This document shows positions 1,592 through 45,378 of a stretch of 64,000 bases of DNA, piece by piece. The stretch lies in the NCBI GenBank assembly GCA_003024785.1, contig PUQB01000213.1, forward strand, positions 186,001 to 250,000, read 5' to 3'. The notes below the pieces were generated by a model. That model searched no databases. It was not told the DNA's origin and saw only the letters and a list, made by a program, of their open reading frames with translations. The DNA comes from Selaginella tamariscina. Taxonomy: Eukaryota > Streptophyta > Lycopodiopsida > Selaginellales > Selaginellaceae. The translations under genes and the position numbers were made by a program. The number at the start of each line of letters is the position of its first letter. Position 1 is the stretch's first letter.

Positions 1592-3741
1592 CCTAGTCTG
1601 ATGTAGTTATACAATAACAGTAGATAGGTATAGTAGCAGACCCTTATGTAGGGGTAATGTGAAACATCAAGGGATGTAGAAATGTAGGTTATAATACCAT
1701 AACATGTGAACCATTGGAAAATTTAATAAACACAAAGGTGTTGGTTAAACATTTGAAATGAACTCAAAGTGCTTATTGTGCGGGTCGTCAATAGTGTTTA
1801 TTATTCAGAAATAAAGTAAGGCTTTATTTCTTATTAACTTAGAAACCGAAAAACATTAATTAGAAGCCTCCAATAATAATTCTAATTAAGTAGAGAAATT
1901 AATCATTGTGTTGTCTACGTCAAGTGACAAACTTTATATACATGTAAAGGTCTGCAAGTGACTTCATGTTGCAGGTTCTCAAGTAATTGGCTTGTGTAAT
2001 GTAAAGGGATAATGAAAATTATGTGAACTTTTTACTGACTCCACATAGAGTGATGTTAGTTTTAGTTAATTTTCTAACATTATTTAGTTTTGGAATTAGA
2101 CGTCAACAAGGAAAATGACATTTCAAAGGTAGGAAGTGTATCATAATTTTTATTTGACTTGACATTTTTACTTTGTAGGTTGATTGTTGTTACGTACTAT
2201 ATTATGTTGATGAACCGTAGTAGCAGTGAAAAATAGCCCTGCATAATGCACTTAAGTGTTTAAGGATAATCCGACTTGTTATCCTTAAATATCACGGAAA
2301 CTCTAAGTGAAAGTAGTATTTACTTTCTAAAAAACCCACCCCCATTTTTGACATCCCAGTCAGGCTTATTGGTTATGGTAAATGAGGGTTAGGAACACCC
2401 CTAGGTTGCCCTACACCCCCTTGGTAAGGTTTAGGGGTAGGAGTTAGGTTAATAAACATAAGTTCATCTAATTTAATTAAAAGGCTAGAATTCCGTGCCA
2501 GCCCACTTACACATATAGGAAACAAGGGAGGGGGAGGCTCTCCGTCACATAAATAAGGTAGGGTATATAGTAGTAGAGTTCCTGGGTTCATGACTGAGCT
2601 TGTTACTCTTAAATTTAGTTTGTGTCATTAAGGCACAACCCTTGTTGTGCTGCCCTAACTTCCAGATCATAGGCCACCTTCGGATAACCTACCCTAATGG
2701 TGGTGAATCCATAACTAAAATGTTTTGTCAGAATGCATGTTCCAATGGACAAAAGTTGATGCATGTCTCTAACCTCCCTCCACATGAAGCTAGGTGTAGC
2801 ACCCGCATATAAAGGCACATCCGTGTCCTTGTTCAATTGTGTGTGTAGGATCTTGGCTGACAAGTTCTTGCTACCCAATTTCTGAGGGTTCACTGAGGGG
2901 TTTTAGACTTGACACTTAAGAACCATGTTCATAGTTATAGGTAACTCTTAAATCTAAGGGGCTAGACATAGTAGCCCACATAGTGTCACATGAAGATGTG
3001 ATACTAGGCTAAACAACTCACAGTACAATGCTCGAGGCATGCCCTTTGGAATTGTGTCATGGGGTTGTCTTTAAGGGGTTGGATACTTTAGCAAATTACA
3101 TGTTTGCTTGCACTAGGTTGCTAAGTCTTAAGCATCAATTCAAGGGAGGTTGGTCTCGTAACTAGGTGTGATTTGCACATTTGGCTAAGGAGTGTTTTCC
3201 TTTGGATCCAAAGGCTAAACAACCCCAACTCATTAATAGGAACCCTTTCGTGAGGCACTCGCAAGGTTATGTACTTAAAGTTATCCAAACCTAACCTTAG
3301 GAGTTCGCTTAGAGAACACTCATGTTTACTTACGACGAGCTTTAGGTCTAAGGTATGACTTGGCCACTCAAACCCTTAGGGGATCCTTTGTCATCTTAAA
3401 GAGGTGTACTCCCAGATGATGGTGATTCCTTAAAGGGTAAGTGATAATGCTTTAACTCTGTTATGGGGTATGTAAAGGCACATCTTCTTAGAGCATAAAC
3501 CTATCTAAGTCTATTGAGACATGATTCTAAAGTTTATTTAGGTTATCCTCTAGGGTTCAGGGGATGGTCATTCTAAGAGATTTAGAGAACTCTGAGTTTT
3601 CTACTTAATTAGGTATATAAGTTAGATTTTATGAGTCATCTTAAAAGACTTAACGTTGTTCACACAAGGTAATGACCACTGAATTGCCACTTGATAATTA
3701 CGTGTTATCACGTGTTAACCCTTCAAGTTAAAACTCTGATA
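1592..3741 (+). mobile_element. Retrotransposon X3a, 3' end: internal remnant plus LTR
   Basis: This plus-oriented remnant matches, in reverse complement, the 3' part of X2. Positions 1592-2138 are the end of the internal region, finishing in a purine-rich tract (AAAGGTAGGAAGTG). The LTR runs 2139-3741 (TATCATAA...CTCTGATA, about 1.6 kb). A second copy with the same borders lies at 38554-41585. The left border is cut at the X1 LTR, so X1 probably inserted here. No protein-coding capacity was recognised; the short open frames at 2373-2893 lie in the LTR. Confidence 0.8.
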
Positions 3742-3795
3742 AATAATAAAATTAAATTTTTGATTTCCTAATTAAAAACTAATGCAATTGAATAG

Positions 3796-4912
3796 TTAAT
3801 TAGTGGTCTCCTTTTAAAGCTCGTGTAAGACATGGGTCAAAATTTAAGGTAGCGCACCCATGAGGCAACCTCATAAATTTTGTTTAAGAAAAAATGAAGT
3901 CTTAATAACACTTAATATACACATTTTAAATATATATATAATTCATATTTTATAAACTTGATTTATGCATTATTGATTATATTAATTACTAATATATTGT
4001 GTATATCTACAATTTAAAGTTCTAAAAACTCTATAGATTTAACTTGAATAACCCGAACGTCTAAATTTAATTTAAGTTTAACAATAAAGATTAAATTGTT
4101 TACAACCAATAGGTTCGTTCACACTCAATAATCTTATCATTATTTTTCTAATTTAAATTTAATAATGGAAATCAAATTATTTACAATCGATGCAGTTGAT
4201 AAGCTCACTCACATTCATTTAATAATGTTATAATTATTCTGGTATAACATCAATATTTAATTATATATTCTTATAAATGATGCTTTGCAACTATACATGT
4301 ACATTTGCGTATGCTATATATATACATAATATATATGTGTGTGTGTGCAAGTGCAACTACATACACACGTGCGTACATGTGCCTCACATGCATACAAACA
4401 CATAATACATACTCAAACATACATAGATGAAGTGATAAACACACATGTATCACATAATCGATGCGACATGTGAAAATATAATATTGATTTATCGAAGGAT
4501 TAAAGATGTAAACCCTTCGTGTTTCCAACTATAACACTCAAAACTCGCCTCTTTTTAAAACACACATGTTCATATTATACACTTCATCTATGTATATATA
4601 TTATGTGTGTGTATGCACATGCATGTGTGTATGTAATTGCACTCACATACATATTATGTATATATATAGCTTACATAGATGCCATGGATCATTTATAATA
4701 ATATATAAGTAAATATTGACTATAATTAATCAATAATGTATAAATCAAGTTTGAATTAATATAATATATTACAAATGTTATTTACCTTAAGATTTAGGAC
4801 TTACTCTTTCTTAGACAGAATTTATGAGGTTGCACATGGGTTGGGCAGCCAACACATGAAATTTAAATTTAAACCCAAATCTTGTATGAGTTTTAAAAGG
4901 AGACTCACCTAG
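3796..4912. repeat. Long foldback (inverted-repeat) element
   Basis: The left arm (about 3796-4450) and the right arm (about 4565-4912) are imperfect reverse complements. Matching landmarks are GTCTCCTTTTAAA against TTTAAAAGGAGAC at the ends, AACCTCATAAATT against AATTTATGAGGTT, ATGCATTATTGAT against ATCAATAATGTAT, and ACATAGATGAAGTG against CACTTCATCTATGTA near the centre. (TG)n and (CA)n runs lie in both arms. No coding sequence was recognised. The same element, slightly truncated, is at 41641-42705. Confidence 0.7.
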
Positions 4913-5117
4913 TGTTATCTGACGTAGATTAATCCCCATGCTATTAGAGAAGAAGATAGTGTAATTTAACACATATTTAAAATACACCTTCACACACATA
5001 TATATGCACACATACACTCGGCACTTGTTCACTTAGTTATGGGTTGAAGCATCACAGGAAGATACTTTTTATTTCGCGTCAAAATTAATTTACCCTAAAT
5101 AGTAATCACGTTTAATA

Positions 5118-5143
5118 AAACCCTAAAACAGGGGTTTAGGGTT
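5118..5143. promoter_or_regulatory. Palindromic telo-box just upstream of gene 1 copy 1
   Basis: AAACCCTAAAAC is followed at once by AGGGGTTTAGGGTT, so the plant telo-box (AAACCCTA) occurs on both strands as a hairpin-capable palindrome, ending seven bases before the ATG at 5150. Gene 1 copy 2 keeps the same module (42836-42861); copy 3 keeps only the right half. In plants telo-boxes sit near start sites of housekeeping genes; a regulatory role here is inferred. Confidence 0.55.
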
Positions 5144-5149
5144 CATACG

Positions 5150-6402
5150 ATGGCCTCCCCTCGGTCGGCAGCCCAGAGAAGCGTGAGGAATGCGTGGTCT
5201 TCCTTCATGGTCTTCTGCCTCTGTTAATGGCTGCCACTGCTCTTGTCAATGCCTCCCTCAATCAGGAGTAAGCTTTCCCCATATTCGACACATCCCAGAT
5301 TTGTTCCGCATTCATGTATAGTGTGTAGGTGTGTATACAACATATATAACATGTATACTAGTATACAAAACAAAATTTTTATCAACGACACGCGCACACA
5401 CACACACACTTGCAGATTCATGTCTTCGATGGACCTGGTGTGTTGAATGATATGAAGTCCATTCGTTCCAGAGCCAAAGAGAAGCTCTCTAAGCAGCAGG
5501 TTAATGACTTTCATCTCCGATTACACTCTCTAAGCCACGTTTAACACAGATTGGCTACCTTGGAAATCTCATCAAGTCTTACAAGAAATGGTACGGTTAT
5601 ATGTGTGTGTGCGTATGAGTGTGTGTGTATATACTAATGTATATAGGAGGAGGCTACAGCAAGGATAATACATGAAGCCAAATCCATGCGTACATATGTG
5701 AGAAATTATGGTGGCGTTGTTGAGTTCTCAAGTGAGAAGTGTTCAGTGAGGATGCAGGTGATGGATATGGGCATCCTGTCTTCTCTACATTGACACTGCA
5801 GAATCTCGGTATGCAAGTGATATTTATATTTATGTTAGCACGTTAGTATAGTATGATGACATTTCTAATGCAGAGGAGTTAGCGGAAGATATTGCGAAAA
5901 TGCACCTGATAGAACTCACTATCAAGGTATTTATTCTGCTTGTGTGGTGTTAGTGTATGAAGGTATGTTTGTCCTCGTAATGTGCTCCTTACAGTGGCGT
6001 ATTACATCTGAGATGAAGTCTATTCTTCATGAAAAGCCTGAAGAGATTTCAGCAGTAAAGCTTAGAGAACTTGAACTTGCTTTGCCTTGTGATTTGGAAG
6101 AGAGGCTTCTAATTCACCAGCCTGATACTAAGCAGAAGGCAGAAACGTTAGAGGTTGTGTGTGTGTGTGTGTGTGTGTGTGTTATCATAGCTTATGTTGT
6201 TTATTAGGTGTATCTTGCATCTTGGCTTGCAGAAGTGAACATAAACCGGCAAAGGTGAGTTTTTAAACTATCAAAATCTTAAGATTACAACACACACACA
6301 CAAAGAAAGAAACAATCAAACACACAATTTAGCATTAAGAACACTTTGCAGAGTGGAGGAGGTGCTGGCTTTGGTGCATGCAGAGATTAAAATTAAACAG
6401 CA
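5150..6402 (+). pseudogene. Gene 1, copy 1: unknown coiled-coil-like protein (broken)
   Basis: One of three copies of the same eight-exon gene (others at 42868 and 60162). Comparing copies gives exons joined by GT-AG introns whose product would be roughly 250 residues: an Ala/Ser-rich N-terminus, then charged helical segments such as SIRSRAKEKLSKQQ, EEATARIIHEAKSMRTYVRN, ELAEDIAKMHLIEL and KLRELELALPCDLEERLL. I do not recognise the family. This copy has lost about 20 bases after the start codon and a second piece of exon 1, has one-base deletions in exons 2 (about 5440) and 4 (about 5737), and has lost the end with the stop codon (about 6400). Exon 6 (5995-6155) is undamaged. Introns carry (TG)n near the 5' end and (AC)n before the acceptor. 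Confidence 0.7.
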
Positions 6403-7240
6403 AGTCTCTTCATGCATGCGTGTGTGTGTGTGTGTGTGGGGGGGGGGGGGCGATATTAATAATAGCCTCTTAGTGAAGTTATCTTGTATTTTCATTAATT
6501 TAACCGTTGGTAGCTTCTAATAGATTACTGTTAGTAGCGTGTACATATACACCAGGAATCTAACAGTATTACATATTAAATAGAAAGCATCTCTTTCACA
6601 CGCACGCACGCACACAGGTATTCATTTGGTACTAAAGCATTCTTCTGTTATCAATCTTCTAATAGGTAGAAACACACGCGTATATTATATATAATATAGT
6701 ATAATAAATAATGTCAATTGCACAATATATAAAGTGTTGTTATAAAAGAAATTATATCTATAAAATATAAAATTAAAATCATGTTATATATAATTTATAG
6801 ATAAAAAATTAAATCTCTTTTTAATTAATATATTGATCTTTTTAGCTGATGCTCTTAAAATATTTTTATTTTTTTATTTTAATATTTATATCAGGCATTT
6901 GGATATCCACTAATGATGTACAAGGTTGGTAGTTAGATTTGCTGTGAATGTTATGTTGATAGCGTTAGATTTGTTGTGAATGTTATGTTTGATAGCGTTA
7001 TAATTAAATATTGTATTGGTATACACACCGCCTCATGCTAGAGCACACCCACACATAGTTAGATATGTTGTGAATCATAATATTGAATTGTTCAATTTGA
7101 ATTATTAAATTAATTTCATTTTTCTAATTTAAAGATCCCTATTTAATTATATATAATAAATGTAACCTGAAGCTTAAATTAAGAAAATGTGCAAATTTTT
7201 ATGCTTTCTCGAAGATCTTGGTCGAATATAAAAATGGTCT
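6403..7240. other. AT-rich non-coding spacer, duplicated elsewhere
   Basis: No gene is seen. It holds a (TG)n-G12 run near 6420-6450 and two tandem copies of a roughly 40-bp unit containing TTGTGAATGTTATG (6936-7005). Parts recur in direct orientation at 44140-44690 and 61456-62020, and inverted at 18400-18565 and 38341-38553. The motif CACAC at 7024-7028 marks the unoccupied version of the site into which X2 inserted in the inverted copy. Confidence 0.6.
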
Positions 7241-7262
7241 CGCATCTCCAAGTGAATACAAG

Positions 7263-7580
7263 GTACAGATAAGATACGAATTCTTTCTACTCAGTGTATA
7301 ATGTTGTTTATCTCTACTCGTACCATTAACTACGTACGTGTCAAACATTGCCTACTTATATTTGATCAAACGTAATCACAGGCCAAGTAAATACGAATTC
7401 TTTCTACTCTATATATACTACTGTTAACGTGTAGAGATAATCAACATTATATACGGAGTAGAAAGAACGTATTCACTTGATTATGTTTGATCAAACATAA
7501 GTAAGCAATGTTTGACACGTACGTAGTTAACGCTACACGGAGTAGAAAGAATTCGTATCTTATTCTATCTTATCTGTACA
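7263..7580. mobile_element. MITE-like hairpin element
   Basis: The ends are reverse complements: GATACGAATTCTTTCTACTC on the left against GAGTAGAAAGAATTCGTATC on the right, preceded and followed by GTACAGATAAGAT and ATCTTATCTGTAC. The interior is also largely self-complementary (for example CATTGCCTACTTATATTTGATC against GATCAAACATAAGTAAGCAATG), so nearly the whole 318 bp can fold into one stem. No open frame of note is present. Confidence 0.65.
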
Positions 7581-7975
7581 TAACAAACAAAATGGTGATT
7601 CAAACACAAAAGGGTGATTCAAGGAACTCAGTTCCTTTGACTTCACTATATATCTTACACACACATATGGACACACACACACAAACCCAATCAATCTTAT
7701 TGTGTCTTGTCTGTACATAACAAACACAAAATGGTGATTCAATCACAAAATGGTGATTCAATCACAAAATGGTGATTCAAGGAACTCAGTTCCTTTGACT
7801 TTGCTATGTATATTTGATGAAGGTGGGTCATCTCTCTCTCTCATACACACACATATGGCACACACACACACAGAGGTATCAACCCAACCATTGTCTGGCC
7901 CAATCTTATTTTGTCTTATCTGTACATAACAAACACAAAATGGTGATTCAAGGAACTCAGTTCCTCAAAGTTTTA
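7570..7975 (+). repeat. Tandem repeat, about 140-210 bp units, three copies
   Basis: Three units begin with TCTGTACATAACAAAC (about 7573, 7709 and 7918), then one to three copies of AAAATGGTGATTCAA and GGAACTCAGTTCCT. Units one and two also carry (CA)n runs around CATATGG. GGAACTCAGTTCC is itself a short palindrome. The array starts where the preceding hairpin element ends, so the unit may derive from its flank. Confidence 0.65.
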
Positions 7976-8046
7976 CTTCTGTATACTATAGCAAATATTG
8001 GCTTCCTTGAGGAAGCACAGTAGTGTTGATAGATCGAACAATTATA

Positions 8047-9083
8047 ATGGAGTGGTTTTGGATTGTTACAGCAGTCATCAATGCAACGTTCCTCTACATC
8101 CCTATCATCGATAAGAATAAACAGTCTGCGCAAATTCAATTTGTTTGCCCTCACTCTTCTCTTTTGAAACTTCCGTCGACTCTCGTCCCTTGTAATTCTC
8201 TGGCGTTCTCAACAATCACGAAAGGAAGTTTACAACACTCTTGCTCGCCATGTACCGGTATGATCCCCATTCGTATATATTTTCTTCTCTGTCAATATAT
8301 TTGCAGGCTTTTGTCATGTTGAGCATGTACAACGGAGAGCTCAATATGAAAGCATTCATATCTACAAGTCTTTGCAGCTGGATTTCCATCGTTGAAGATG
8401 GTGATCGTGCGGGATACAAGAAACTCAAATCCTGCGGTTTCCTTTGTGCTTTATGCGTTTTCTTGCCAGTCATGTAAGTCTGTTTGTGTTTATTCTCAAT
8501 AGTGACAAAGGACTGCAAATATGTAGTTTGTAGGTGCCTTGTGGTATTCATTGGTGGTGGAGAAGGAAATCAGGTGCACCCGAGAAAATCTGTTCGAATT
8601 ATGGGATTTATGCAACTGCGCTGGAACATGATCTCACGTCAGAAGAGTTTGGTATGTTTGGGCGATACTTGTTTTCGTTATGGTGGGACTTCGAAATCTC
8701 AGGTAACTATTTGCCCCCTTCTTTAATCACAGTTAATTAAATTAATTATTTTAATGATTTTAGAGGACATAAATTAAAAAGACCTTGAACGTTAATTGCT
8801 ATATACATAATTTAAGTTTTTCTTAAATACATATTTTTTTTCTTAATTTTAAATATTTATTAATTAATTAAGTTTTAATTAATTAATTAAAATACAAAAG
8901 GGAGCTGAAGTATGACACCGTCCCTTCCTGTCCCTGTCCATTCCATGTTCATATATATATATGTGTGTGTGTGTGTACGCTTGTAGCTCTTTCGGACAAG
9001 GACTGGACTCACCTACAGAGCTAAGTCAGACTGCATTTGCTACCTTCTGTGGGATTCTGGGGTGTTCTTGTTTGGGAATCTGA
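8047..9083 (+). pseudogene. Gene 2, copy 1: unknown multi-pass membrane protein (broken)
   Basis: Four exons are inferred by comparison with the second copy (45379-46421): 8047-8257, 8307-8473, 8534-8702 and 8987-9083, all with GT-AG borders. The ancestral product would be about 218 residues. It starts with a hydrophobic stretch (WIVTAVINATFLYIPI) followed by a charged loop with DKNK, a second hydrophobic region in exon 2 (MYNGELNMKAFISTSL), and an acidic segment EHDLTSEEFG in exon 3. Exon 1 here has several small deletions relative to copy 2. Exon 3 has one extra base near 8580 that shifts the frame. A very faint resemblance to PQ-loop/MtN3 transporters is not strong enough to name it. The transposon at 9246 lies about 160 bp beyond the stop codon. 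Confidence 0.6.
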
Positions 9084-9245
9084 TTTGGGAGGTAAGTGTG
9101 GCCACTTTAAAATTGTTTTCGATCACGTACATTCCATTTCACAGTTGGCCTCTTGAACCCCATGAGATGCCACAGTCAATTGGTCCTTAAATCATAACTA
9201 TCAACTTAACTGGAACCAGTACAATCTTGATATCATCGTGGAGTG

Positions 9246-9360
9246 GGGTCTCGGCGAAAAGGAGGCTCCGGCTCAGGAGGCTTCATATTATTCTAGTGTA
9301 TTGCAAATTTCCAGGTTTATTCTAGCATATTCTAGAATATTCTCAAGAATATTAGAATAT
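9246..9360 (+). repeat. Left terminal inverted repeat and subterminal motifs
   Basis: The terminus GGGTCTCGGCGAAAAGGAGG pairs with the reverse complement of the right end (GAGTGCCGCCATTTTGGAGG); about 60 percent of the first 20 bases match, with GGAGGCT best conserved. Just inside lie several ATTCTAG / AATATTCT units (9295-9360), mirrored inside the right end at 17160-17205. Such clustered subterminal motifs are typical transposase-binding regions; that role is inferred. Confidence 0.65.
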
Positions 9361-9649
9361 ATAAGTTTTTTTTAATAGCCGACTGGCTTAATAAAGCATT
9401 ATCCTAAACCCTAAACCATTTATCCTTGTAGCACCAGTGGGTCATGAACTCTGCTGCAATTCACCAGCAACGGTGGACCTCCATCTCACTGAGTGATCGC
9501 CTTTGTAGAAAATATGTGACGTCCGGGTTCAAGCCAAGAACACGGCTGTAGACGAAGTACATGTGTACACATGGGCCTCCAACTTTTGTTCTTCTGAAAT
9601 GTAAAACAATTGCATGAATGATAAGTATTAATAATCACCTTTGTAGAGT
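9361..9649. other. Non-coding subterminal region of the transposon
   Basis: No gene is seen. It includes a GCCGACTGG motif (about 9378) related to the leader repeats at 13053-13750, and is otherwise unremarkable. Confidence 0.5.
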
Positions 9650-12570
9650 CATTTCTTGCCGACACAACGAAAGCCTCCTTCCGTCCTTTACTGTCACTTC
9701 AAACATTTCGCACATGACCTAAAAAATGTCTTGACCTTGCGGAAATTCTTCTCTTGTTCCTTAGACATTTTTGTTGGAGTCCGGACCATATGTCCTTCGA
9801 AAGGTGGAATTGTTGTAGATCCAGCTCCACGTGGTGGCGATGGTGTTTTGTCCTTCTGACCCTCATCTACTCTTCCTGCCGTCCCCTGTAAACCTTCCAG
9901 AACAAAGCTTGCATCATGTAGTTCTCTGACCTCCTCACTTGTCAGCCTCGTTTCCTTGAGCACAGGCCAAACCGTTGGTGTTGTGTGGAATTCATGACTG
10001 AAGAATTTTTCTGTTTGGCCGTGTGAAACACCCTAAATCTTTTGGGCAGAACCACATCATCTATTGTACATACTCCTCATTCCCCAAGGCATCAATGTAC
10101 ATTCGTTTTCCATAGAATCTTGGTGCTGGCACTCTGCTTGGATAACCGATTGGTTTTCCACACAGAGCAGTTCCTTCCTGATTCATCCCCAAACACTTAA
10201 CCTTACTGGATGCTCCGATTCGTCTGATGGCCACTCTGTTTGAGCAATCTCTCTCTCCAAAACCTCTTCGAACTTAACCTCTTTCTCTTTGTTTTGAACC
10301 CGCTCTGTGTACTCTACATCATGTCTGTGTGAACGTTGAGCATCAGACTGTTCTGTTCCTGTGATTGTTCTCCTAACAGTTGCACCGAACGTTAGTGGTA
10401 CGTGAACTCCGGGCTGGTCAAGTGTTCCTCGCCTTCCACCAGATTGATAATTGTTGATGGAGATACACTTTTCCCCTCAGAGAGTTTGCGTTGCACTCGT
10501 TCAACAGAGTTCCTTCGAAGGCCCTGACCCTGTATACCTCCCTTCTATTGCCGCTTTCAACTTTGCACTCTACATAACTGCATCGGTGAGTCTAACATTG
10601 TCGCCTCCAGCAATGGTATTCTTTTGGCCAATCTTGCTCTTCTTGCTCTCGCTGAATCACTTCAGCATTGTTTGTAGTGGAACGCTTGCGAGTCCTTCTT
10701 CTGTCATGTCTCCCAGTTCCGCCATTGAGAGTGGTCCTCATGCCTGATTCACCAAGACAGTCATGTCTTCAAAGCTCGAATTTTGATGCTCGTCCTTCCC
10801 AAAAAGACTCGAGAATTGCCAATTGTTCTTTCTTAGATTGTTCATTCAGTGCTGCAGGCCAGGCACGAGCAAGCTTCATGTGTTCTTCGCGATGTTCTTC
10901 TGTGATCCATTTCCTTTGTCACCTGACGCACGGATTGCATAAAGTGAAATAGACAGCTTCTTTCCCTCCCTTTCATCTTTGCCCGTTGTTGAATACTTGG
11001 CGCAAGGCTATCCATATCGCTCCAGCCTCCGACAATGAAACCAGCAAAGTTGACATTCTCCAAACCCTGTTTCTTACAAACCTCTAGCATTGTGTTCAAG
11101 AACTTCAGCACTGCAACATTATCTTCGCGGCACATATCTGCGTAAGCTATAGTCACCATGGATCTGACATTGCAAGAGAGCGTTAGATAACGAAGATTAG
11201 AAAGTGTTATAAAGAGTTTTACAACTTACAATGGGTCATAAAGGTGTATTCCAATTGTCGCCCAGTCTGGTATGCGGTGTGTGTGGTCCAGAACAACCCA
11301 TTGATCATGAAGGTCTCCTCCACTTTGACACCTTCTGATGTACTCAACTCCTGAACCCGGTCCCTCAACTGTCATTTTGAAGATCAGAGGCTGCTCCTCA
11401 GCACCATGCAGTTCCATCCCTGGAACATGTATGACGTGAATGAAAGGTATTGGCAACTTTGTCTTAGCTCCAGAAGACCCTCGTAACCCTCTCTAAAGTG
11501 TGTCTCCTTCTATCTTGATTGTGTAATCCAGTCCCGAGTCCTAAAGGAAAGGTCACGTCAGTGTTTAGAGATCTAAAGAAAAATATCTTCGATGGTTTGT
11601 AAGAGGTTCAAGTTTTAAGAGTAAACCAATGTACGAGACTTCTCCTTCTTCCTTGAAAAGTTCTTCAAAGATGAGCTCACGCGCAGCTTGAAACTCAATC
11701 ACTCGTTGATTGGTTCATGGACTGCTCTTTACCACGTTGTTGACACTAGATCTGGCTCGCTGAACGTTTGAAGCTGACACTGAGGGCTGACTGGATGCTG
11801 ATGAACACCTCTGTGAATGAACAACCTTGTAAAAGAAATGTCGTCTGGTAGAATGTAGTACACATAAGTCGACAAGTGTGCACTAGCAATGGCTCCTCTC
11901 CTCAATGCTTACATTTCATGCCTATTACTTTGCCTGTCTCAGTTGTCTTTGCCTTCTCCACAGCACCCTTGAAGTGACATTCATTTGCTTTCTTCTTAAA
12001 AGCCAAGTAGGGACAAGTAGGATTGATGCATTTGAGATGTCCAACACATGAACTTTGACTGACTCGCGCCGGAACATGCCAGTGTGTTGTGCTCGGGTGT
12101 GTCCAATGGTACAGCTATCCTTGCGATTCATCCCCAAGTACTTCTCTGTGCTTTCTTTCTTTGGGGAAGTTCGTAAATGACATTTTCATTGTATATCTGC
12201 GGTAGTTCAGAGACTCGTTTAACTTCAGATGAACCAATGAGATCCTTCCCTATCCTACATTTGTCTGCTCTTAGAAGACACACCAGCATGGATTCCTCAC
12301 GCTCCTCTGTCCGCAACCTGAAACAACGGGCCCTTTGCCGGGCACAATGTGTAAAAACACAAACTGGTTTGATGCATTGCCTTCTGGTAACAACTCCACA
12401 TCTTTTCCAGAACTCGCAGAAACTAACATCAATTGAACCACATGTATACTGAACCAACAAGGAATGTTGAAAGCAATGTGAAGATCATGTTCAAACACAA
12501 AAGCATTTCCATCTTCATCGACTGGGAAATCTTTGTCAATGCCTTCATAGGTAACTCTGGCCATGACAAC
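9650..12570 (-). pseudogene. MULE-like transposase (heavily decayed)
   Basis: Read from high to low coordinates, conserved blocks appear in different frames. An N-terminal piece has VTYEGIDKDF (about 12560). A cysteine-containing block has GHLKC-INPTCPYLAFKKKA and later VIGMKC (about 12050-11920), resembling the zinc-binding N-terminus of plant MULE-type transposases. Next come IPDWATIGIHLYDPL (11270-11230), then MVTIAYADMCRED (11159 on), LEVCKKQGLENVNFAGF and RERSCLFHFMQSVRQVT (about 10970). The last three have the layout of MULE DDE catalytic regions, in which a short ...FADS... block precedes the (R/K)ERTCxFHW block. Here the expected Asp-Ser is replaced by GGWSD, and the Trp after His is Phe. 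A C-terminal piece has SEEVRELHDASFVLEGLQG (about 9930). Stops and frameshifts separate all blocks, so it cannot be functional. Confidence 0.65.
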
Positions 12571-12847
12571 GCAAGGAGAAAGCTCGGTGTTTTAGGAAAG
12601 CAAAGCAAAAGATTAAACACACTCCCGTTCGCCAAAAAAAAATTATAATCGTTGATAATAAACGTGAATACACATTTGTATATAATTAATTCTACGCTGC
12701 CTAGCTCACAGTGTTCTTAATGCTGTCCTCTCTAGTATCACTGATTTAATTTAATTACTACTTTTATGATTTAAAATATCTTCACCTTTACCAATTATTC
12801 ACATATTTTAAAATAAACCCTAAATATTAATGTCACATTTATTCCGT
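12571..12847. other. Intergenic region between the divergent transposon genes
   Basis: AT-rich sequence between the start of the transposase remnant and the methyltransferase leader. No gene is seen. Promoters for both genes would be expected here, but no clear core motif is visible. Confidence 0.4.
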
Positions 12848-13050
12848 AGGGTTCACTGTTTTCATTGCGGCTAGGGTTTTTTGGTAGATAGGGTTTACTG
12901 TTTCCACTGCGGCTAGGGTTTTTTCAATCTCAGATCTGTTTCCACTGCGGCAGATCCGAGGGTTTTTTCAATCTCAGATCTCAGAGTTACGGTTTCCACT
13001 GCGGCGCATCCATTTCGACTCAATTCGTGCAGCGCCCAAGTATATCAATG
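12848..13050 (+). repeat. Short tandem repeats upstream of the methyltransferase leader
   Basis: The unit is roughly TTTCCACTGCGGC followed by TAGGGTTTTTTCAATCTCAG. It occurs about four times with variation (12850, 12900, 12945, 12990), some units carrying CAGATCT. The repeats end just before the exon-like array at 13053, so they probably span the promoter or transcript start; that is an inference. Confidence 0.5.
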
Positions 13051-13052
13051 GA

Positions 13053-13750
13053 GATTTCTGTGCCGATTTAGATTGTCGGCACCATCCTGCTCAGTTGGCG
13101 CCACAAGGTATGTGCAATTTCTGTAATTGATGATTTGTGGCAGAAAGTATTTCTTTTTTCAGAGATAAAGAATCTTCCCATTTGTGCCGACTGAGAGCGA
13201 CGGCACCATCCTGGTTTAGTCGGCAGCCACAAGGTATTTTCGATTTATTTATTTTTTTCTTTGCGGCTCAAGTATCCGTATCACAATGTTTTTTTTCAGA
13301 GTTAATGTGTCTTCCCATTTGTGCCGACTGAGAGTGACGGCACCATCCTGGTTCAGTCGGCAGCCACAAGGTATTTTCGATTTATTTATTTTTTTCTTTG
13401 CGGCTCAAGTATCCATATCACAATGTTTTTTTTTCAGAGTTAATGTGTCTTCCTATTTGTGCCGACTGAGAGTGACGGCACCATCCTGGTTCAATTGGCA
13501 ACCACAAGGTATTTTGAATTTGTGTATATTTTGCTTTGCGGTCTAAGTATTTCTTTTTCAGAGTTAATGGGTCTTCCCATTTGTGCCGTCTGAGAGGGAC
13601 GGCACCATCCTATCTCAGTCGGCACCATTATCTCTTCAGTGCCATCTGAGAGGGTCGGCACCAACTATCTCAGTCGGCAGGATTTGTTCTTTACATCTCT
13701 ATGCCGACTGAGAGGGTCGGCACCATCTAGCTTGAGTTGGCAGCCACAAG
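13053..13750 (+). repeat. Tandem exon-intron array forming the 5' leader of the methyltransferase gene
   Basis: Five exon-like units are separated by GT-AG introns of 53-68 bp. The first ends at 13107; the next are 13163-13233, 13300-13370 and 13438-13508 (each exactly 71 nt), and the last is an expanded 189-nt unit, 13562-13750. The repeat period is 137-138 bp and includes both splice sites. Each unit ends CCACAAG before GT and begins AG(T/A)TAA after the acceptor. Each holds GTGCCGACTGAGAG...CGGCACC...TCAGTCGGCA, so two competing hairpins can form. At 71 nt the units do not keep frame, so they are best read as 5'-UTR exons. Confidence 0.6.
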
Positions 13751-13828
13751 GTTAGTCATCTTTGTTTGTTTTTTTAATTTTGTCTCCTAATCAATTGACT
13801 TGTGTGTTTGCTTTCCAGAGTTTACAAA

Positions 13829-16800
13829 ATGGTGAGAGCTTCAAAACGTCTACTAGAGACTGCGCCTGATGAAGAGCCACGGGAAGAGAAGAGGATATCG
13901 AAGCAGAAGTGAGGCAAGAGAGGAGAACCATCTAATGTAGCAAAGGAGGATCCTCCAGTGACTCAGTCTGGAGTAGTACCAATTGAGCAGGAGCAGCCTC
14001 CACCAATCATCACAGATTTCCCGGAGAGCTCGTCGCAGTTGCCTCCTTCATCCGTTGAGGTTGCAGTCCTGAACGAGCAAGTGCAGATGACAGAGGCAGT
14101 TGAAGCTAGTTAGGACGACTTGGAGGAGGCAGTCAGCAAAAAGAGAGGCCGCGGGAAAGCTGATCCAAAAGGCAAGAAGGCGAAGAGCGATAAGGAGCCG
14201 AAGGAGTTATACAGCATACCAGCTAGCATGCATTTGGAGAGCTTAGTGAACCTGCTCGACAAATTACTTGTCAAGGGACTTGGTGATCCTCCTGATGTGC
14301 CCATCTGTAGAATGCATTCAAACGAGGTGGTTTGACGAGTGAACCCAGGGGACTTGGACAGGCTGGTGTCATCGTTGAAGAAGGTTGGTTATCTACGCAA
14401 CACGGCCTTGTTCATTCTGTCCATCGGAGATCGACTCACTACGGAGGAGCTATCGGAGCTGTCGAAGGACACGATTCAGTACGAGCAGCACCGGTCTTTC
14501 GAGCAAGCTCTTACTCAGCCGAAGTACAAACAGTGGGCTTCAAGGCTCTCAAACCGGAAGTTCAACTGCTGGGACGGGAACCATAAGCTACAGGCTTTGC
14601 AAAAGCTGTATTGGGAGGATGCAGAGGACAACCAGCGATGGGCTATTCACGTTCGATCAAGTTTCATCTCCACGGAGAACCTTGACAATCTTCAACTGGT
14701 TTCGATGTTCTAATCGATTAACATGTGAGTATTTTCTTTTCTTTTTGTTAAGAGTTTAGACTTACAGTTTCTTTGAACAGATCTTCAGCAACATCTGTGG
14801 AAACAACGCTACCACATATTCTCCTCGCTGTAAAGGCGGTCTGCACTAGTACCGAAGGAACTCAGAAAATCCTCGAGTCACTCACGGAGGTTGATTGTCT
14901 TGAGGTGCGGAAGTGGAAGGAGAGTTCAGTAGGAAAGACGGCTTGGCATCCTCTTTCGAACCTGATCTGTGCAAAGATCCTTTTCAAGGTAACCTCTGAT
15001 TTGATTTATAGGAAAGAAGTTTTTAACTTATTCTATGTGCAGAACGAAATCGACGATGATCTCGACAGAGTAGTCACTAGTGCTAAGGGCAATCCACAAG
15101 TTGAGGTGAACCTGAAGCAGCTAGTGTACAAGAAGCATGACAAGTGTATGCACAAGTTCCTCTCCATCATAGACCCAGACTTGGGGGATGAGTGGTTCCA
15201 AAAGGTGATGAATATCTCTCATAAGCAGTGTCGCTGGATGGCATTGAGAAGTTGTATGCGATGTCAAAGGCGAAGATTCCAAACATGCTGCGACTCCGAT
15301 ATTTGAACAAGCTCACCCGTCTCAAATCCAAGGCAGAACAACAGACACTTGGGCTACCAGGCATGCAGGACAAAGAGTGGATCAAGTGGTTCACCTTAGA
15401 CTTATATTGGAAGGCTGTGCGCGAGGAAGCCATTCAGATCCTTAAGGGGTTGCGAGAGGATGGTGAAGAAGTTGGAACGGATGTCGACTTCATGAGCTGG
15501 TTTGACGAGATGCGAACTCGGAGCAAGTGCCTGGTCTTTCAGCCCTTCCATGACTGCATACGGTTCACTTATTTGATGGAGCTGAATGAGTTTTTGGAGC
15601 GTGAGGAGTCTGCGCATCAGATGATATGGAGGTAAGCTTTCATTCTAGCATTGCTACTGTCTGACTTTGTGTTACAGGTTCATACTAGTGAAGAAACTGG
15701 CACCGTCTCAGACGATGAAGCTGTGGACAGATCATACAAGCGAGCCTCACATGTGGTCGAAGAGAGGAGCTCTAACACCATTCGAACGGGAGCATGTTCC
15801 ATTCTGGCTCGACTGTCCGTCGCAACAGACACCAGCTTGGGAAAGCTCACTATTCGACGTGCACGGCAATGATCTACCAGCGATTGTTTGGGAGTTGGAC
15901 GAAGTAGAGGCTATCAAGAAGAGCAAGATGAAGAAGACGGTGCGGAAGACAACTACACCTACAAAGGGATCGGGTGGGACTAAGCTCTTCTACAGCACCT
16001 CCGCCGGCAATCGACTTTACAATCAATGAGGTGCAGCCACTTGTAGCTAGTTTGGACATCAAGGACGACTTGATGACCTTCATCCCGACCCTGGCTGCAT
16101 CTCGTGGATCCTACGACCTGGCTGTGTGCGATATGGAGGAGATGAGCAGGTCTTTCTTTGAGCCGAGTGCTTCCCAGACAGAGGTGTACACCAAGCTCCG
16201 ACAACAGGTTGACAGACTACATACGGGTGAGTCACAAACGGTGTTCCAGGAAGTGATAGGTGAATACGGCTTCAACCTTATCATCCTCGACTTGCCCAAT
16301 GAGCTTGTATATGGAGGTGCTAGCATCAACAAGGACATTGTGCAACTAGATCCGGTGAAGTTTGAGGAGGCCTTGCAGTTCAGTGGAATGCACTTGGCAG
16401 CGAGTGGTTTCATGGTCGTCTTCGCGAGTTCTTCTTCTGTTTCGGCGGTGATTCAGGCGGCTACAGTAATCAACTTGGAGGTTGCAGGGACTTACAGTGT
16501 CTACCGTGCACAAGGCTGGGGATACCGTGACAAAATTAAGGTAAGCTAGCTATTCAAGTTCAAGTTTAACTTGGTCTATGTGGCAGGATAACTTGTTAGT
16601 TCTCTTGGTGTTGCAAAGCTCTGAGAAGAAGTCGAAGAGGCCAAACCCTCTGGCGTTGACGAACACGATCCTTGTCGACACCGCCGACTGTTTTCAGGAG
16701 GCTTGGTAAGGAAGTACTTTGCTTTGTTTATCCTAATGGAAGTTTGTGTAGGATGACGATTCAACCGAAGAGTGTTCGACTCATGTAGCTTTTGATCGAG

Positions 16801-17076
16801 CATCTCAGTAGACCTGGCGACCTAGTCTGGGATATTGGTTACGGAACCAGGTCATCGTTGTTAGCTGCCGTCGAGCTTGAAAGGAATATTATAGGAACCG
16901 AGAAGAGTTTCGAACTCTCTAGGTTGGCAACAAACAAGCTTGCAGAGAACATTAAACCAGAGGAATTACCTACTCAAACACCTCCACATCCAAGCGTAAC
17001 TGGTGGTTTAAGAACTGTAGCTTTACTTAAAATGAAAAAGAAAACTTTAGTTAATGTATATTCAGTAATAAATTAA
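13829..17076 (+). pseudogene. ParB-like / amino-type (N4/N6) DNA methyltransferase fusion, transposon cargo
   Basis: The start ATG lies ten bases into an exon that follows a clean acceptor (13818). Coding exons are about 13829-14724, 14781-14988, 15043-15631, 15678-16540, 16586-16705 and 16752-17076; introns are only 45-56 bp. The N-terminus is basic and Pro-rich with SKKRGRGKADPKGKKAKS. A ParB/Srx-like domain follows (about 14335-14700) with VNPGDLDRLVSSLKKVGYL and the hallmark WDGNHKLQALQKLYW. After a roughly 400-residue middle region lies a methyltransferase domain in permuted order: IILDLPNELV (about 16280, where DPPY-type motif IV is expected, here degenerate), then SGMHLAASGFMVVF, then C-terminal motif I in GDLVWDIGYGTRSSLLAA (about 16820). 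In-frame stops at 13910, 14111, 14333, 14711 and 16786 and frameshifts near 15215 and 15970 make it a pseudogene. Whether the ancestor methylated C or A cannot be told. Confidence 0.7.
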
Positions 17077-17099
17077 GCTAATATAAAAAGAAAAGATAG

Positions 17100-17236
17100 A
17101 AATACAACAGTTTTACTAGAATTCTTTTTTGCGGACTGAGGTCAATACTACTGCCGACCAGAAAGAATATTCCAAAATATTCTACAATATTTTAGAATAT
17201 TTGAGCCCAGGCCAAGCCTCCAAAATGGCGGCACTC
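17100..17236 (-). repeat. Right subterminal region and terminal inverted repeat
   Basis: A cluster of AATATTCT/AGAATATT units (17163-17205) mirrors the left end, followed by GCCTCCAAAATGGCGGCACT at the border. A GCGGACTGAGG and a GCCGACC motif (17130-17160) echo the leader hairpins. Confidence 0.6.
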
Positions 17237-17245
17237 CGTGGAGTG

Positions 17246-24299: not shown

Positions 24300-24957
24300 T
24301 GTCACGAACCCGATACAGAATACAGGATTCCGGATACAGGATATGGGTTGCAGGACTTTCCTACAGGATTTCGATACAGGATATGGTTGCAGGACTTTCC
24401 TACAGGATTCCGGATACAGGATATGGGTTGCAGGACTTTCCTACAGGATATTCCTACCAGGATTCCGGACACAGGATTCGGTTGCAGGATATTCCTACAG
24501 GATATGCCACAGGATATGCCATGCCTAGAGGATAAGGGACATGTGGACTCATCTTAGCCTCTGCATGCATGCAATCACTTTTGCATGCATGCAACCACTT
24601 TTAGCACTCATGCCTAGATTAGCTCTTGGAGTTGTGAGCATAAAAGCTCCGACCTAATTGTTGTACAATCAGTTACTATCAACACCAGTCTTACTACGAT
24701 CAATCTCGTCTTGTCTTGTTCTTGTCTTGTTTCCTGTCCTGTCCTGTCTCGCTCCTGTTTCCTGTCCTGCTCCTGGATCCTGTCCTGCCTGTCTTGTCCT
24801 GGATCTGTCCTGTTTTGTCTATCCTGATCCTGTCTTGCTCCTAGATCCGTCCTGTTCCTATTCCTAGTTCCTGTCCTGCTCTCGGTCCTGTTCCTGAGTC
24901 AAGCCTTCCTGTCCTTGGAATCCTGTCTCTTCCTGGTTCCTGGATCGTGGCTTGACA
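24300..24957 (+). repeat. 5' LTR of chromovirus A
   Basis: The U3 part (24310-24530) is built from short tandem units around CCTACAGGATAT and CCGGATACAGGATATG. The U5 part (24710-24950) is rich in CTGTCCTG / GATCCTG units. Twin CATGCATGCAACCACTTTT units lie near 24566-24602. A TATA-like box and the inferred transcript start lie between. Confidence 0.88.
24639..24682 (+). promoter_or_regulatory. TATA-like box and inferred transcript start (R) of chromovirus A
   Basis: CATAAAAG (24639-24646) is followed 31 bases later by CAGTTACTATCAA (24670-24682). That is a normal TATA-to-start distance, and the 13-mer is exactly complementary to the primer site after the LTR. Transcription start at or near 24670 is inferred from this coincidence. 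Confidence 0.6.
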
Positions 24958-24972
24958 GTTTGATAGTAACTG
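24958..24972 (+). promoter_or_regulatory. Self-primer-binding site of chromovirus A
   Basis: The bases after the LTR are GTTTGATAGTAACTG. TTGATAGTAACTG (24960-24972) is the perfect reverse complement of CAGTTACTATCAA at the predicted 5' end of the transcript. No tRNA 3' end ending in TGG complement is apparent. This is the arrangement used for self-primed reverse transcription in Tf1-type elements. Confidence 0.65.
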
Positions 24973-25049
24973 CTTCATAGTTCTCCGTTTTCCAGCTACC
25001 TTTTTCTTGATTCTTTTCCTTCATTTTCCTCCTTTTTCTTTCCTAGATC

Positions 25050-26026
25050 ATGGCTGATTTTGAGCGCTTTCAACGCGAGCACCAAATGTTACTTCATGAG
25101 CTGGCCACTTTGCGCCAAGTGGTCACCGACCTGCAAGGTTCCACCACTGCGGCACATGCAGCTGCTGATGCATCCTCCAAGGCTGCTGCGCAGGCTCTCT
25201 CCCAGGCATCGGTGGTTCCCTCTTCATCAACTTTTCTTCGGAGCCGAAGGTTAGCATGCCAGAGAAGTTCAGTGGCAATCGTGCCGATTTCCAAGGTTTC
25301 CTGAATCAGATCCGGCTCTTGATCCGTATGCAACCACGGCGCTACTCGACTGATGCTCAAAAGGTGGGTCTTTTGGCATCCTTACTAAGTGGATCTCCAC
25401 GGGCTTGGGTTGCCCCCTTGCTGGAGCGTGACGACCCATTGATGGAAGACTTTGAAGGTTTCGTGGCTGCCTTTGAAGCCTGTTTTGGAGATCCTGATAA
25501 GTACCGTTCTGCATGCACGAAGTTACGGAAGCTCACTCAAGGATCCCGACCAGCTTCCGTCTATGCATCCGAATTTCAGCAACTTTGCACGAACATTCCA
25601 TGGGACGAGACTGCATTGATCGAACACTTCCGTTTTGGGTTGAGGGATGACGTGAAGGACCTTCTCCTTACGTTACCGGATGCCCAAACATTAGCGGAGA
25701 TCATGCAACAAGCTGTTCGTTGCGACAACCGTTTGTTCGAGCGTCGTCAGGAAAGATCCCGTCAGCAGTTCCTGCAAACCAATCCTGCAGCTGTGGTACA
25801 TGTTCCTGCACCACCTTCTGGAGTAGTTCCTATGGAGGTTGAGAAATCCAAGCGTGGCTCTCTTTCCGCTGCTGAGAAGCAACGTCGTCGCAGTGAGAAC
25901 CTGTGCTTGTATTGTGGTGGAGCAGGACACAAGGTGGCAGATTGTCCTATTAAAGCCAGGAACTTCAAGACGCGTGAAGTTGAAGCTGAAGTTCAGTCGG
26001 AAAACTCCAATGTCCACTTCGTCTAG
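25050..26026 (+). pseudogene. gag of chromovirus A (frameshifted)
   Basis: The product begins MADFERFQREHQ and has an Ala-rich helical N-terminus. A retrotransposon-gag core follows from MPEKFSGNRADFQGFLNQ through the LLSGSPRAWV and FRFGLRDDVKDLLL regions, ending in one CCHC zinc knuckle, CLYCGGAGHKVADC (about 25909-25950). A single missing base near 25225, seen against copy B, splits the frame between the N-terminus and the core. The core itself (25256-26026) is open. Its stop at 26024 precedes protease, as in many Gypsy elements with separate or frameshifted gag and pol. Confidence 0.85.
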
Positions 26027-26099
26027 GAGCCGCGAAGTTGGACGTAGGTGCAGGCTCCATTGGTGCTGCTCATACCATCCCATCACTTAAGTTTCCTGT

Positions 26100-29000
26100 A
26101 CACATTCATCTTAATAATCGAGAGCTCATGGAGTTTGCCTTGTTAGACACTTGCAAATGCATGCTTCATGGATGACACGTTTGCAACTCAACATGGCATT
26201 TCGGTGGTGAAGTTGAAGCGTGCAGTTCCTGTAGAGGTGGCCGATGGGCGTCTATTGCTTCTGGCGCAGTTACCCATGCTACCGAACCTCTCTCCTGCAG
26301 TATGGCACATTCAACTGTTCAATTTCCTTCAACTTGATCAAGACTCGGTCGACTCCCATCATTTTGGGCATGCCATGGTTCGTTGTTGCAAATCCGCAGA
26401 TCGACTGGAGGTCTAGGACGCTCACGTTTTCCTCTCCACAGCTAGGATCAATCCTGTACCTTCCTGTGCAGGATACATCCTTAGTATCTGAGGCAGTACA
26501 AGCTACAGGATTGACCGTGCCTGTTCCTGTACCAGTGTTGAAGACTCCTCCTCGACAGGATTCACCTCATGTCAGTTCCTCAGCACATCCGCAGGCTCTC
26601 TCCACTCCTGTAAGTTTGCGGTGTCCTGTACAGGGTTCTTCCAATCCTGTATCAGTGTCGAAGGTTCCTCCTCAACAGGATCCACCTCCTGTTGATTCGT
26701 CAGCACATTCGCAGGCTTTTCCCACTCCTGCGCAACCACGGACTCCTGTACAGGATTCTTCCAATCCTGTACACTCATCAACACCACACAGGTTTTTTCC
26801 AATCCTGCTCTTTCTGTTACCCTGCTTCTGTTCCACCCCCAAGATCCTTCCTCTTTTTCAGTCACAGCTCCCTCCTTCTCCTCTCCGAGTTCTTACCACT
26901 ACCATGCATGAACTCGCCACTGATCCTGCTCCTTCCACCTTTTTGCCTTTCAAGTAACTCCTACGTCCTCTTCTACCTTTCCTGTATCCGACTCTCCTGT
27001 TTTCTCTTCTCCTCTCCTTCTCCTTCTCCTCCTTCTTCCCTACCATCCAAGTACCACGACTTTAAGGACGTTTTTGACAAGCACAAGGCTGCAGTTCTTC
27101 CTGTTCACAGGTCCTACGACTGTCCTATTGATCTTGCGGAAGGAAAGACTCCACCATTCGGACCGATTTATGCATTGTCACCCACAGAGTTGGAGGTTCT
27201 TCGTCAGTACATCGAGGACAACTTGGCATCCGGCTTCATTCGTCACTCAAAGTCCCCTGCAGGAGCGCCTATCTTCTTTGTGAAGTTGTGGACTACAGGG
27301 GTTTGAATCAAGTCACCATTCGGAATCGGTACCCGTTGCCATTGATCCCGGAACTTCTCGATCGGCTGCGAGGAGCAAAGGTGTTCACGAAGATCGACTT
27401 ACGAGGGCCTACAACCTTGTACGGATTCGTCCCGGCGATGAGTGGAAGACTGCCTTTCGTACAAGGTATGGACATTTTGAGTACACGGTAATGCCTTTCG
27501 GCCTTACCAATGCCCCAGCCGTGTTCCAACACATGGTGAACGACATTTTCGTGACTTCTTGGACCAGTTTGTGGTGATCTACCTCGACGACATCTTGATT
27601 TTCTCCAAGGACCAGGCGGCACATGACAAGCATGTACGACTAGTTTAGAGCGGCTTCGCGAGCATGGCCTGTACGCGAAGTTGGAGAAGTGTTTTTTCGA
27701 TAGGGATTCGGTGGAGTTCTTGGGCTACATCGTCTCTCCTGCTGGCGTTTCCATGGACATGCACAAGGTGAAGACCATCGTGGAGTGGGAGAGGCCCAAG
27801 TCGGTACGAGATGTACAATGTTTCCTTGGCTTTGCAAACTTCTACAGGCGGTTCATACAGGACTTCTCCAAGCGTGTACTTCCACTCACAGAACTCACCA
27901 AGCGCACAGGACTTTTCTCTTGGTCCGACAAGGCGGAACACGCGTTCACAACACTCAAGGACGTTTCACGACAGCTCCGATTTTAGCACATCCTGACCCT
28001 TCTCATCCTTTCTTCATTGAAGCAGATGCCTCGGATTTTGCAGTAGGATCCGTCCTATCGCAAGTTGGAGAGGACAAGTTGCTTCATCCTGTAGCTTTTC
28101 ACTCTCGTAAGTTCCTGTCGGCGGAGATCAATACGAGATTCATGACAAGGAACTCAAGGCCATTGTGGATTCGTTTGAGGAGTGGCGGCATTTCCTGGAA
28201 GGTGCTGCACATCCTGTACAAGTTCTTACGGATCACAAGAACCTGGAGTACTTTCAAACGGCTCGAGTTCTCAGTCGGCGACAGGCTAGGTGGGCAGAGT
28301 TCCTATCACGTTTTGACTTCGTCATCGTCTACAGGCCCGGTTTTCGGAATGGCAAGGCGGACGCATTGTCTAGGCGCTCTTACCTTGCACCAAGCCCGGG
28401 CGATCCTGCATTTGACTGTCAAAGGCAAGTGTTGTTGGGTCCTGATCGTTCCGGCTTGCGGCACTGCAGGTTCATCAGGCTCCAGCAAATTCAACACTCC
28501 TACAGGACGTCCGTTCGCAGTTGGCTACAGACGACTTGGCAAAGAATGTGTTCTCACACATTCATCCTGACGTTGCAAGTTCCTCTTCCTCCAGTTCCCG
28601 TCCAGACTACAACCTGTTCACCATACAGGATGGACTCCTGTACCGGGAAGGTCTCCTGTACGTTCCTGTTGGTATTTCCAGGACTCGTGTGGTACAGGAT
28701 TGTCATGATACCCCGGCTACAGGACATTTTGGTGTGGCCAAGACAGTGGAGTTGGTGACTCGCAACTATTGGTGGCCTGGGTTGCGAGGTTTTGTGGAGA
28801 GGTTTGTACGGAGTTGTGACACTTGTAGCAGGTCGAAGATGCCTCATCATGCACCCTCTGGTCTTCTTCGTCCTCTTCCTGTTCCTTCTGCTCCTTGGAG
28901 ATCCATTTCTATGGATTTCCTCACAGATCTTCCTCCTTCTCGTGGATTTGATGCAGTTCTTGTGGTGGTTGACCGTTTCACCAAGCAGGCTCATTTCCTA

Positions 29001-29978: not shown

Positions 29979-29989
29979 GGAGGAGGTGC

Positions 29990-32141: not shown

Positions 32142-32221
32142 CTTTCATAGCTCCGTTTCCAGCTACTTTTTTTTCTTCTTGATTCTTTTCCTTCGTTTTT
32201 CTCCTTTTTCTTTCATAGATC

Positions 32222-44690: not shown

Positions 44691-45378
44691 AGAGGGGTGT
44701 TGCAAATAACAAAGGGTAAAATGTTGAGAATTTTTTAATGTTTTTTTAGAAAGAGAGGATTACTCTCAATACACTTGATTAAATGTTTGAACTTGCAAAG
44801 AACACGATCATGGTTTATGTAACCAGTTAGATTTAATTTAAGCCTTACATATTATTTAAGAAAAAAAAAACCGCACATACATCCCCGGGAATTTACTTAA
44901 ATTAATATATATGCTATCTTGCGTTTCAGGACTTTCAAGCAAAATGGATTAAAAAACTTAAAAAGAATGCAAAATTGAATTCTGACTTAAAAAACATATA
45001 AAGAAACAAAGATGTTGATGTTAATGGTGCTTATTTTTTTGTGCAAAATTTGTATTTAAAATGCATAATTTTATGTAAAACCTTAGGAATTATGCATTTA
45101 AAAATGCAGATTTTGAACACAAGATAGGCATCGGACCGTGTAAACCGTAAAGATAAAGAGTTATATATTATACAGTATCTCACAAAATAATTAACTATAT
45201 CCACCAAAGCTTGACATCACTCCACGATGATATCAAGATTGTACTGTTCCAGTTAAGTTGATAGTTATGATTTAAGACCAATTGACTGTGGCATCTTGTG
45301 GGGTTCGAGAGGCCAACTGTGAAATGGAATGTACGTGATCGAGAAACAATTTCAAAGTGGCCACACTTACCTCCCAAA
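44691..45378 (-). other. Inverted 3' flank of gene 2, including the unoccupied transposon site
   Basis: Reverse complement of 17246-18350. CACTCCACG at 45218-45226 is the single copy of the 9-bp target CGTGGAGTG (minus strand) that is duplicated around the transposon at 9246-17236. No gene is seen. Confidence 0.75.

Follow-up and report, generated by a model that had tools for sequence, protein, structure and literature searches.

The window analysed here, a stretch of 64,000 nucleotides of Selaginella tamariscina DNA (contig PUQB01000213.1), contains a degraded copy of a MULE-like (Mutator-like element) transposon that carries its own gene for a ParB-like methyltransferase. The copy occupies positions 9246..17236 (7,991 bp) and belongs to what is termed subfamily A, whose DNA transposons have been active recently, appear to be autonomous and contain a divergent gene pair, with the transposase encoded on the minus strand and an accessory protein on the plus strand. 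In the accessory protein, a ParB-like segment at the N-terminus is followed by a middle part peculiar to this protein and, at the C-terminus, by an amino-methyltransferase domain. Judged from substitution patterns, the methyltransferase gene is under purifying selection, both within subfamily A and between A and a second subfamily, B. ParB-methyltransferase genes on transposons are already known from algae; what is new here is the MULE-like carrier with candidate target arrays.

The stretch at 9246-17236 is a single insertion. A perfect 9-bp target duplication, CGTGGAGTG, lies on both borders (plus strand, 9237..9245 on the left and 17237..17245 on the right), and an unoccupied duplicate of the target site lies on the minus strand at 45218..45226. 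CGTGGAGTG occurs five times in the window against 0.24 expected, the remaining two occurrences being at 27779 and 34957. When the flanks are joined without the element, they align unbroken to the empty duplicate at 45.2 kb. An earlier model-made note on the same letters (the sequence-only reading) had claimed both the exact duplications and the unoccupied allele, and both were confirmed. The inverted ends that it described were also found, but they are weak and imperfect: in the young copy L017, they agree at 16 of 26 positions. They are followed by AATATTCT-rich stretches. The window also holds segmental duplications of 87-92% identity (1594-9245 versus 39455-46433, and 60133-61858), one of which supplies the empty site.

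Related copies were sought in the genome (300.7 Mb in 1,391 contigs). The DNA search with the element scored 19 of 1,377 candidates. Its list comprised the window copy and 18 further copies, each of which was fetched; copy numbers are lower bounds. The genome thus holds at least 18 further subfamily A copies, and 16 of the 18 are mutually 99.0-100% alike. The window copy is 95.3-95.8% identical to 17 of them and 92.3% identical to L025. Fifteen copies had both ends within the fetched stretch: the 9-bp duplication is perfect in eight, matches at 8/9 positions in three (one of them, L018, reaches this only when both ends are moved by 3) and at no more than 5/9 in four. A 9-bp target duplication, the size used as a criterion for MULEs, was therefore found in perfect form in the window copy, in 8/15 A copies and in both of the B copies examined. 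The sequence-only reading had proposed a genome search for intact copies with such duplications, and this search also yielded L017, in which both genes are intact.

Several copies have unusual structures. The window's own contig has another A copy, a damaged one, about 13 kb ahead of the window (G000:C520:166437-173371). L015 and L016 share an identical 20-bp left flank, have different right flanks and show no target duplication, as would result from recombination or from an error in the assembly. L025 (C682:264625-271100) differs from L017 at about 1% of synonymous sites in the methyltransferase half and at 15.6% in the transposase half, and is either a mosaic of two elements or a misaligned truncation. 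L044 (C516:751700-761600) is an A-type copy with inverted internal segments, in which parts of both genes are on the unexpected strand.

The methyltransferase gene was found in the same place in all 18 fetched A copies. A genome scan with the Pfam profile PF01555 (N6_N4_Mtase) gave 739 candidates, of which 150 were scored, and all 150 were over the cut-off. Among 20 loci first picked, chosen from the list and not at random, six were fetched whole; in 6/6, transposase and methyltransferase matches adjoin. A-like loci make up four of these, including a truncated and a rearranged one, and the other two (L041 and L046) represent subfamily B. The sequence-only reading had named methyltransferase copies outside such elements as a sign of chance co-insertion. 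In the part of this test that was run, none of the six whole loci had one outside; two pieces beyond judgement are left out of the count, one at the edge of L042 and one in L047, a 4.5-kb A-like piece fetched without its neighbouring stretch. The former (L042:9609-9887) lies on the other strand, immediately outside an A copy and at the limit of the fetched stretch, and is 63% identical to A.

Subfamily B has the same two divergent genes as A. The accessory proteins of A and B are 56% identical over 982 aligned residues, and their genes differ at about 30% of nonsynonymous versus 84% of synonymous sites, the latter being saturated. Between the window copy and L017, the ratio of nonsynonymous to synonymous substitution rates (dN/dS) is 0.35 for the accessory gene and 0.44 for the transposase; the value for the L025 transposase (0.71) is unreliable because that copy is mosaic or truncated. 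Since the same gene pair is found in A and in the strongly diverged B, the methyltransferase is a long-standing component of the transposon, maintained by selection, and did not come along by chance. The synonymous saturation between A and B, together with the dN/dS of both genes, indicates that the two have long travelled and been kept together. That the methyltransferase gene arrived by chance co-insertion, or as a captured fragment as in Pack-MULEs, is extremely improbable: nothing among the copies examined favours it, and the gene is present in 18 A copies and 6/6 further loci, intact in 6/18 and under purifying selection. Chance co-insertion was rejected for the sampled copies, and the earlier claim that the transposon carries its own methyltransferase gene held.

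The transposase is a protein of 1,019 residues encoded by three exons on the minus strand, and its gene is degraded in the window. According to the model carried over from the intact L017, exon 1, broken in the window, lies at 11587..12564, exon 2 at 11230..11540 and exon 3, with a SWIM-like zinc finger near its end, at 9417..11169. The transposase is open in one of the 18 fetched A copies, L017, which also has an intact plus-strand gene. A genome search with the L017 transposase, in which 45 of 3,362 candidates were scored, gave at least five full-length matches at 2,316-2,319 bits, L017 included. In the protein database, four relatives with 28-31% identity were found among 7,999 candidates scored. 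The C-terminal SWIM-like zinc finger reaches E=0.04 in L017 and E=0.0027 in the relative P0005, both below the curated cut-off, and as candidate parts of a DDE catalytic triad a D, a D and a CxxH block are visible by eye in L017 and the relatives. The sequence-only reading had described a MULE-like transposase remnant; a degraded minus-strand transposase, intact elsewhere, and 9-bp duplications agree with this, but the Pfam MULE transposase profile found no match in the intact protein, its pieces or the four relatives.

The accessory gene has six exons on the plus strand: exon 1 at 13829..14724, with the ParB-like segment from about 14201; exon 2 at 14781..14988; exon 3 at 15043..15631, encoding the middle part, which has no Pfam match; exon 4 at 15678..16540, with motif IV (DLPN) at 16289-16300; exon 5 at 16587..16705; and exon 6 at 16752..17055 (end approximate), with the PF01555 match and motifs X and I. 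In the window copy, codon 28 is a stop and motif I has decayed to DIGYGTRSS (16831-16857). In 6/18 fetched A copies, the gene has an uninterrupted frame of 992 residues and GT-AG introns. It is broken in the other 12, sometimes through single-base differences in runs, which are possibly assembly errors. A 991-residue model, with the first splice site one codon off, underlies the intact-copy Pfam search, the phage search, the dN/dS values and the A-B and phage alignments; the two models agree on which copies are open.

The methyltransferase domain is recognised by PF01555 with E=1e-6 on the window piece, 1e-8 on an intact A copy and 5e-9 on B; the scores for A and B (35.9 and 36.8 bits) exceed the curated cut-off of 26.7. 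The match covers motifs X and I only, at residues 897-952 in A (991-residue model) and in the same part of B. Motif I, which binds S-adenosylmethionine (SAM), reads DIGSGTGSS in 17/18 fetched A copies (the exception is L014) and in B. With the methyltransferase part of the window copy, 39 phage records were found at E<=1; with that of an intact copy, 202 were found at E<=0.1, the best shown at 2e-4 and mostly over motifs X and I. PHROGs assigned the C-terminal part to DNA methyltransferase families (best 2.9e-6) and gave no match for the ParB-like part. The PDB gave four weak matches (best 0.015), and in NCBIfam nothing came near its cut-offs. In the protein database, the window accessory protein had no relative at E<=0.01 among 7,999 candidates scored, and its C-terminal part had none at E<=1 among 6,192 candidates. 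IMG/VR scans with two pieces gave 37 and 5 pattern matches, none confirmed, and tblastn of the ParB-like piece against phages found no match.

Eight phage ParB-N6/N4 methyltransferase fusions (for example MK448667, PV036426 and MW202867) were compared with the accessory protein. As in the fusions, the ParB-like part precedes the methyltransferase, and the stretches matched by the phage profile start 144 residues apart in the element protein and 145 in the profile. The stretch with motifs X and I aligns at E=0.00015; for the motif IV stretch taken by itself, E=0.24, which is not significant. The phage proteins are 411-812 residues long and have DPPY in 7/8 cases; the element protein differs in its large middle part and in having DLPN instead.

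These comparisons also supply the points that weigh against a ParB-type enzyme writing a base mark. Motif IV is DLPN in 19/19 aligned A copies, the window included, and in B; the profile alignment sets it opposite DPPY, the aromatic residue of which is gone, so it lacks the form (D/N/S)PP(Y/F/W), and catalysis may therefore be altered or lost. In the N-terminal part, no Pfam ParB match was obtained for the window pieces, the intact A protein or the B protein, and a phage-ParB profile scored the whole accessory protein no better than shuffled sequences. After post hoc removal of a loop, a weak collinear match to that profile emerged, which 6/5,000 shuffles for A and 146/5,000 for B equalled. 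Bacterial parS sites are read by the helix-turn-helix part of ParB, and no such part was identified in the accessory protein. ParB as a proven domain was rejected, as its membership rests on a motif and the profile tests failed to establish it. The sequence-only reading thus stood in part. The WDGNH block that it had seen as ParB-like is present, and CWDGNHRL, a candidate for the GxHR-type block ahead of a methyltransferase, is kept in both A and B, but neither Pfam nor the phage profile establishes the domain; its amino-methyltransferase motifs hold for X and I (PF01555) but not for motif IV. Among the profiles that it had suggested, N6_N4_Mtase exceeded its cut-off, while ParB and MULE gave no match.

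One explanation of the changed motif is that the methyltransferase domain binds SAM but is not catalytic, and that the protein acts, in the manner of VANC or TnpA, as a regulator with sequence specificity or as an anti-silencing factor, leaving no base mark. The conservation of DLPN in both A and B, set against DPPY in 7/8 phage ParB-methyltransferases, is consistent with this, as is the action of VANC proteins through motif arrays, as described in the consulted part of PMC5735166. We nevertheless consider a non-catalytic protein rather unlikely, as both motif X and DIGSGTGSS have survived divergence that saturates synonymous sites, and the D and P of motif IV persist within DLPN.

The site arrays, absent from the sequence-only reading, offer the most useful clue to how self-targeting might operate. 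GCCGAC occurs 15 times in the element and eight times in the window's remaining 55,991 bp. Sites of the GCCGACTG type form an intergenic array at 13056..13740, arranged as inverted pairs and partly in 137-bp units; the 137-bp units of A contain the inverted pairs TGCCGACTGAGAG...TCAGTCGGCA. The intergenic region of B has a 22-bp palindrome as its array unit: palindromes of the form GTCGGCNNGCCGAC, most of them CCCAGTCGGCATGCCGACTGGG, number 10 in L041 and 13 in L046 and mostly recur every 39-40 bp. GCCGACTG was counted 18 times in L017 (A), 20 times in L041 (B) and 25 times in L046 (B), whereas simulated sequences gave means of 0.15-0.17 and a maximum of 2 (200 runs each); across the 18 fetched A copies, incomplete ones included, the count is 9 to 20.

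Single sites are also found near the ends. On the left, GCCGACTG is at 137 and 156 in A, and GCCGACCA at 137 and GCCGACTA at 169 in B; on the right, GCCGACTG is 114 bp from the end in A and 134-135 bp in B. The window copy has a left subterminal site GCCGACTGG at 9378..9386 (plus strand), where L017 has GCCGACTGG-type sites in tandem. Its right subterminal sites at 17130..17158 (plus strand) consist of a decayed TGCGGACTGAG at 17130-17140 and GCCGAC at 17153-17158; the intact form in L017 is TGCCGACTGAGG. The noncoding parts of A and B have no DNA match with each other, and the common site and positions therefore stand out. In the genome, TGCCGACTGAG occurs 3,376 times against nine times for the reversed pattern. 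Among the matches listed, comparison by eye with the 150 methyltransferase places gave eight pairs 198-208 bp apart, as expected for the element's right end; the other listed TGCCGACTGAG places had no methyltransferase partner among these matches. Element-specific motif arrays in noncoding DNA, a criterion taken from VANDAL elements, are thus present in A and B with a genome-wide excess, part of the 3,376 places having been compared with those of the element. Inspected by eye, the A array units at 13056-13740 are bordered by sequences resembling GT...AG and may represent leader exons and introns of the accessory gene in repeated form. As a full explanation of the A array, duplication of a leader exon was rejected, because in B the same site is embedded in another unit, one of 39-40 bp.

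The sites might instead be bound by the transposase itself, like the subterminal repeats of other plant DNA transposons, with the methyltransferase acting elsewhere or generally. Sites for the transposase or for TNPA lie near the ends of Ac and En/Spm. Sites or near-matches close to both ends in A and B, and a transposase conserved together with them, speak for this explanation and against a self-targeting accessory protein. We regard it as a minority possibility, since the majority of GCCGACTG sites are intergenic, situated upstream of the accessory gene and far from the ends.

As the sites are found at both promoters and ends and are multiplied in different units, and the accessory gene is conserved, a self-targeting protein is the simplest reading. 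The accessory protein would recognise GCCGACTG half-sites, in the array at the divergent promoters and singly near both ends, and would there modify or coat the element's DNA. This could keep the promoters active against host silencing, or set when the ends may be cut; a self-targeting protein would thus mark or shield its own element, as VANC does through motif arrays in VANDAL according to the consulted part of PMC5735166. On the sequence evidence, the chances that the accessory protein binds these half-sites and modifies or coats the element, for promoter activity or for the timing of end-cutting, seem evenly balanced. Site binding is a prediction from the arrays, and the chemistry, as suggested by the domain, would be methylation of cytosine N4 or adenine N6; a self-marking or anti-silencing effect is likewise a prediction. 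More doubtful is a complete self-marking system on the plan of a bacterial partition locus, with palindromic, parS-like arrays at promoters and ends, in which a ParB-like amino-methyltransferase with a changed catalytic motif would write a mark other than 5-methylcytosine (5mC) only on site-bearing copies. The enzyme may also methylate another substrate, host DNA at large or RNA, in which case self-targeting would be wrong. The unusual motif IV means that the substrate is not readable from sequence; the enriched arrays inside the element, however, offer a simple self-target, and we judge another substrate quite improbable.

The closest published cases include Sola1-1_Ec32 of Ectocarpus, a transposon with a ParB-like-methyltransferase accessory gene (PMC12477816); the consulted part of that paper also cites such genes in transposons of green and red algae, with reference to Iyer 2011 and Petroll 2025. 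The Sola1-1_Ec32 protein is similar in size (1,104 residues), combines ParB-like and N4C/N6A methyltransferase domains and is encoded on the strand opposite the transposase, as here. The two elements, compared by description, not sequence, differ in that Sola1-1_Ec32 is a 21.5-kb Sola1 element, whereas the present one is 8 kb long and has 9-bp duplications, a MULE-like transposase and palindromic-site arrays; the consulted part of PMC12477816 mentions no counterpart of these arrays. VANDAL elements resemble ours in being MULE-type and in having an accessory gene and element-specific arrays of short motifs in noncoding DNA, expanded by tandem repeats (PMC5735166). Unlike the accessory protein here, VANC is not described in the consulted part of that paper as a methyltransferase or as ParB-like, and VANDAL motifs have the same orientation, whereas those described here form palindromes or inverted pairs. 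DNA transposons of fungi with TET/JBP genes likewise carry a DNA-base-modifying enzyme, although this is a dioxygenase acting on 5mC and not an amino-methyltransferase; oomycete MuDR elements with SET-domain genes are also known (both from the consulted part of PMC12730594). Among the matches listed from open-licence papers, searched by titles and the starts of abstracts, there was neither such a gene in a MULE nor target arrays for one. For the accessory protein TnpA of En/Spm, the subterminal sites are likewise repeated and contain CCGAC, and the protein is involved in epigenetic state; it belongs to a different superfamily and has no methyltransferase domain.

Elsewhere in the window, 24601-30031 and 31760-37192 are two long copies, 95% alike, whose frames resemble by eye the gag-pol of a Ty3-type long terminal repeat retrotransposon.

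In sum, with an enzyme gene, many near-identical young copies and a short candidate target site in hand, binding and self-methylation by this transposon are directly testable. If true, self-methylation would set a mark-writing protein beside the transposon proteins already known for anti-silencing and demethylation, and would provide a natural use for N4-methylcytosine or N6-methyladenine in a eukaryote. The element bears on whether eukaryotic transposons write their own base marks.

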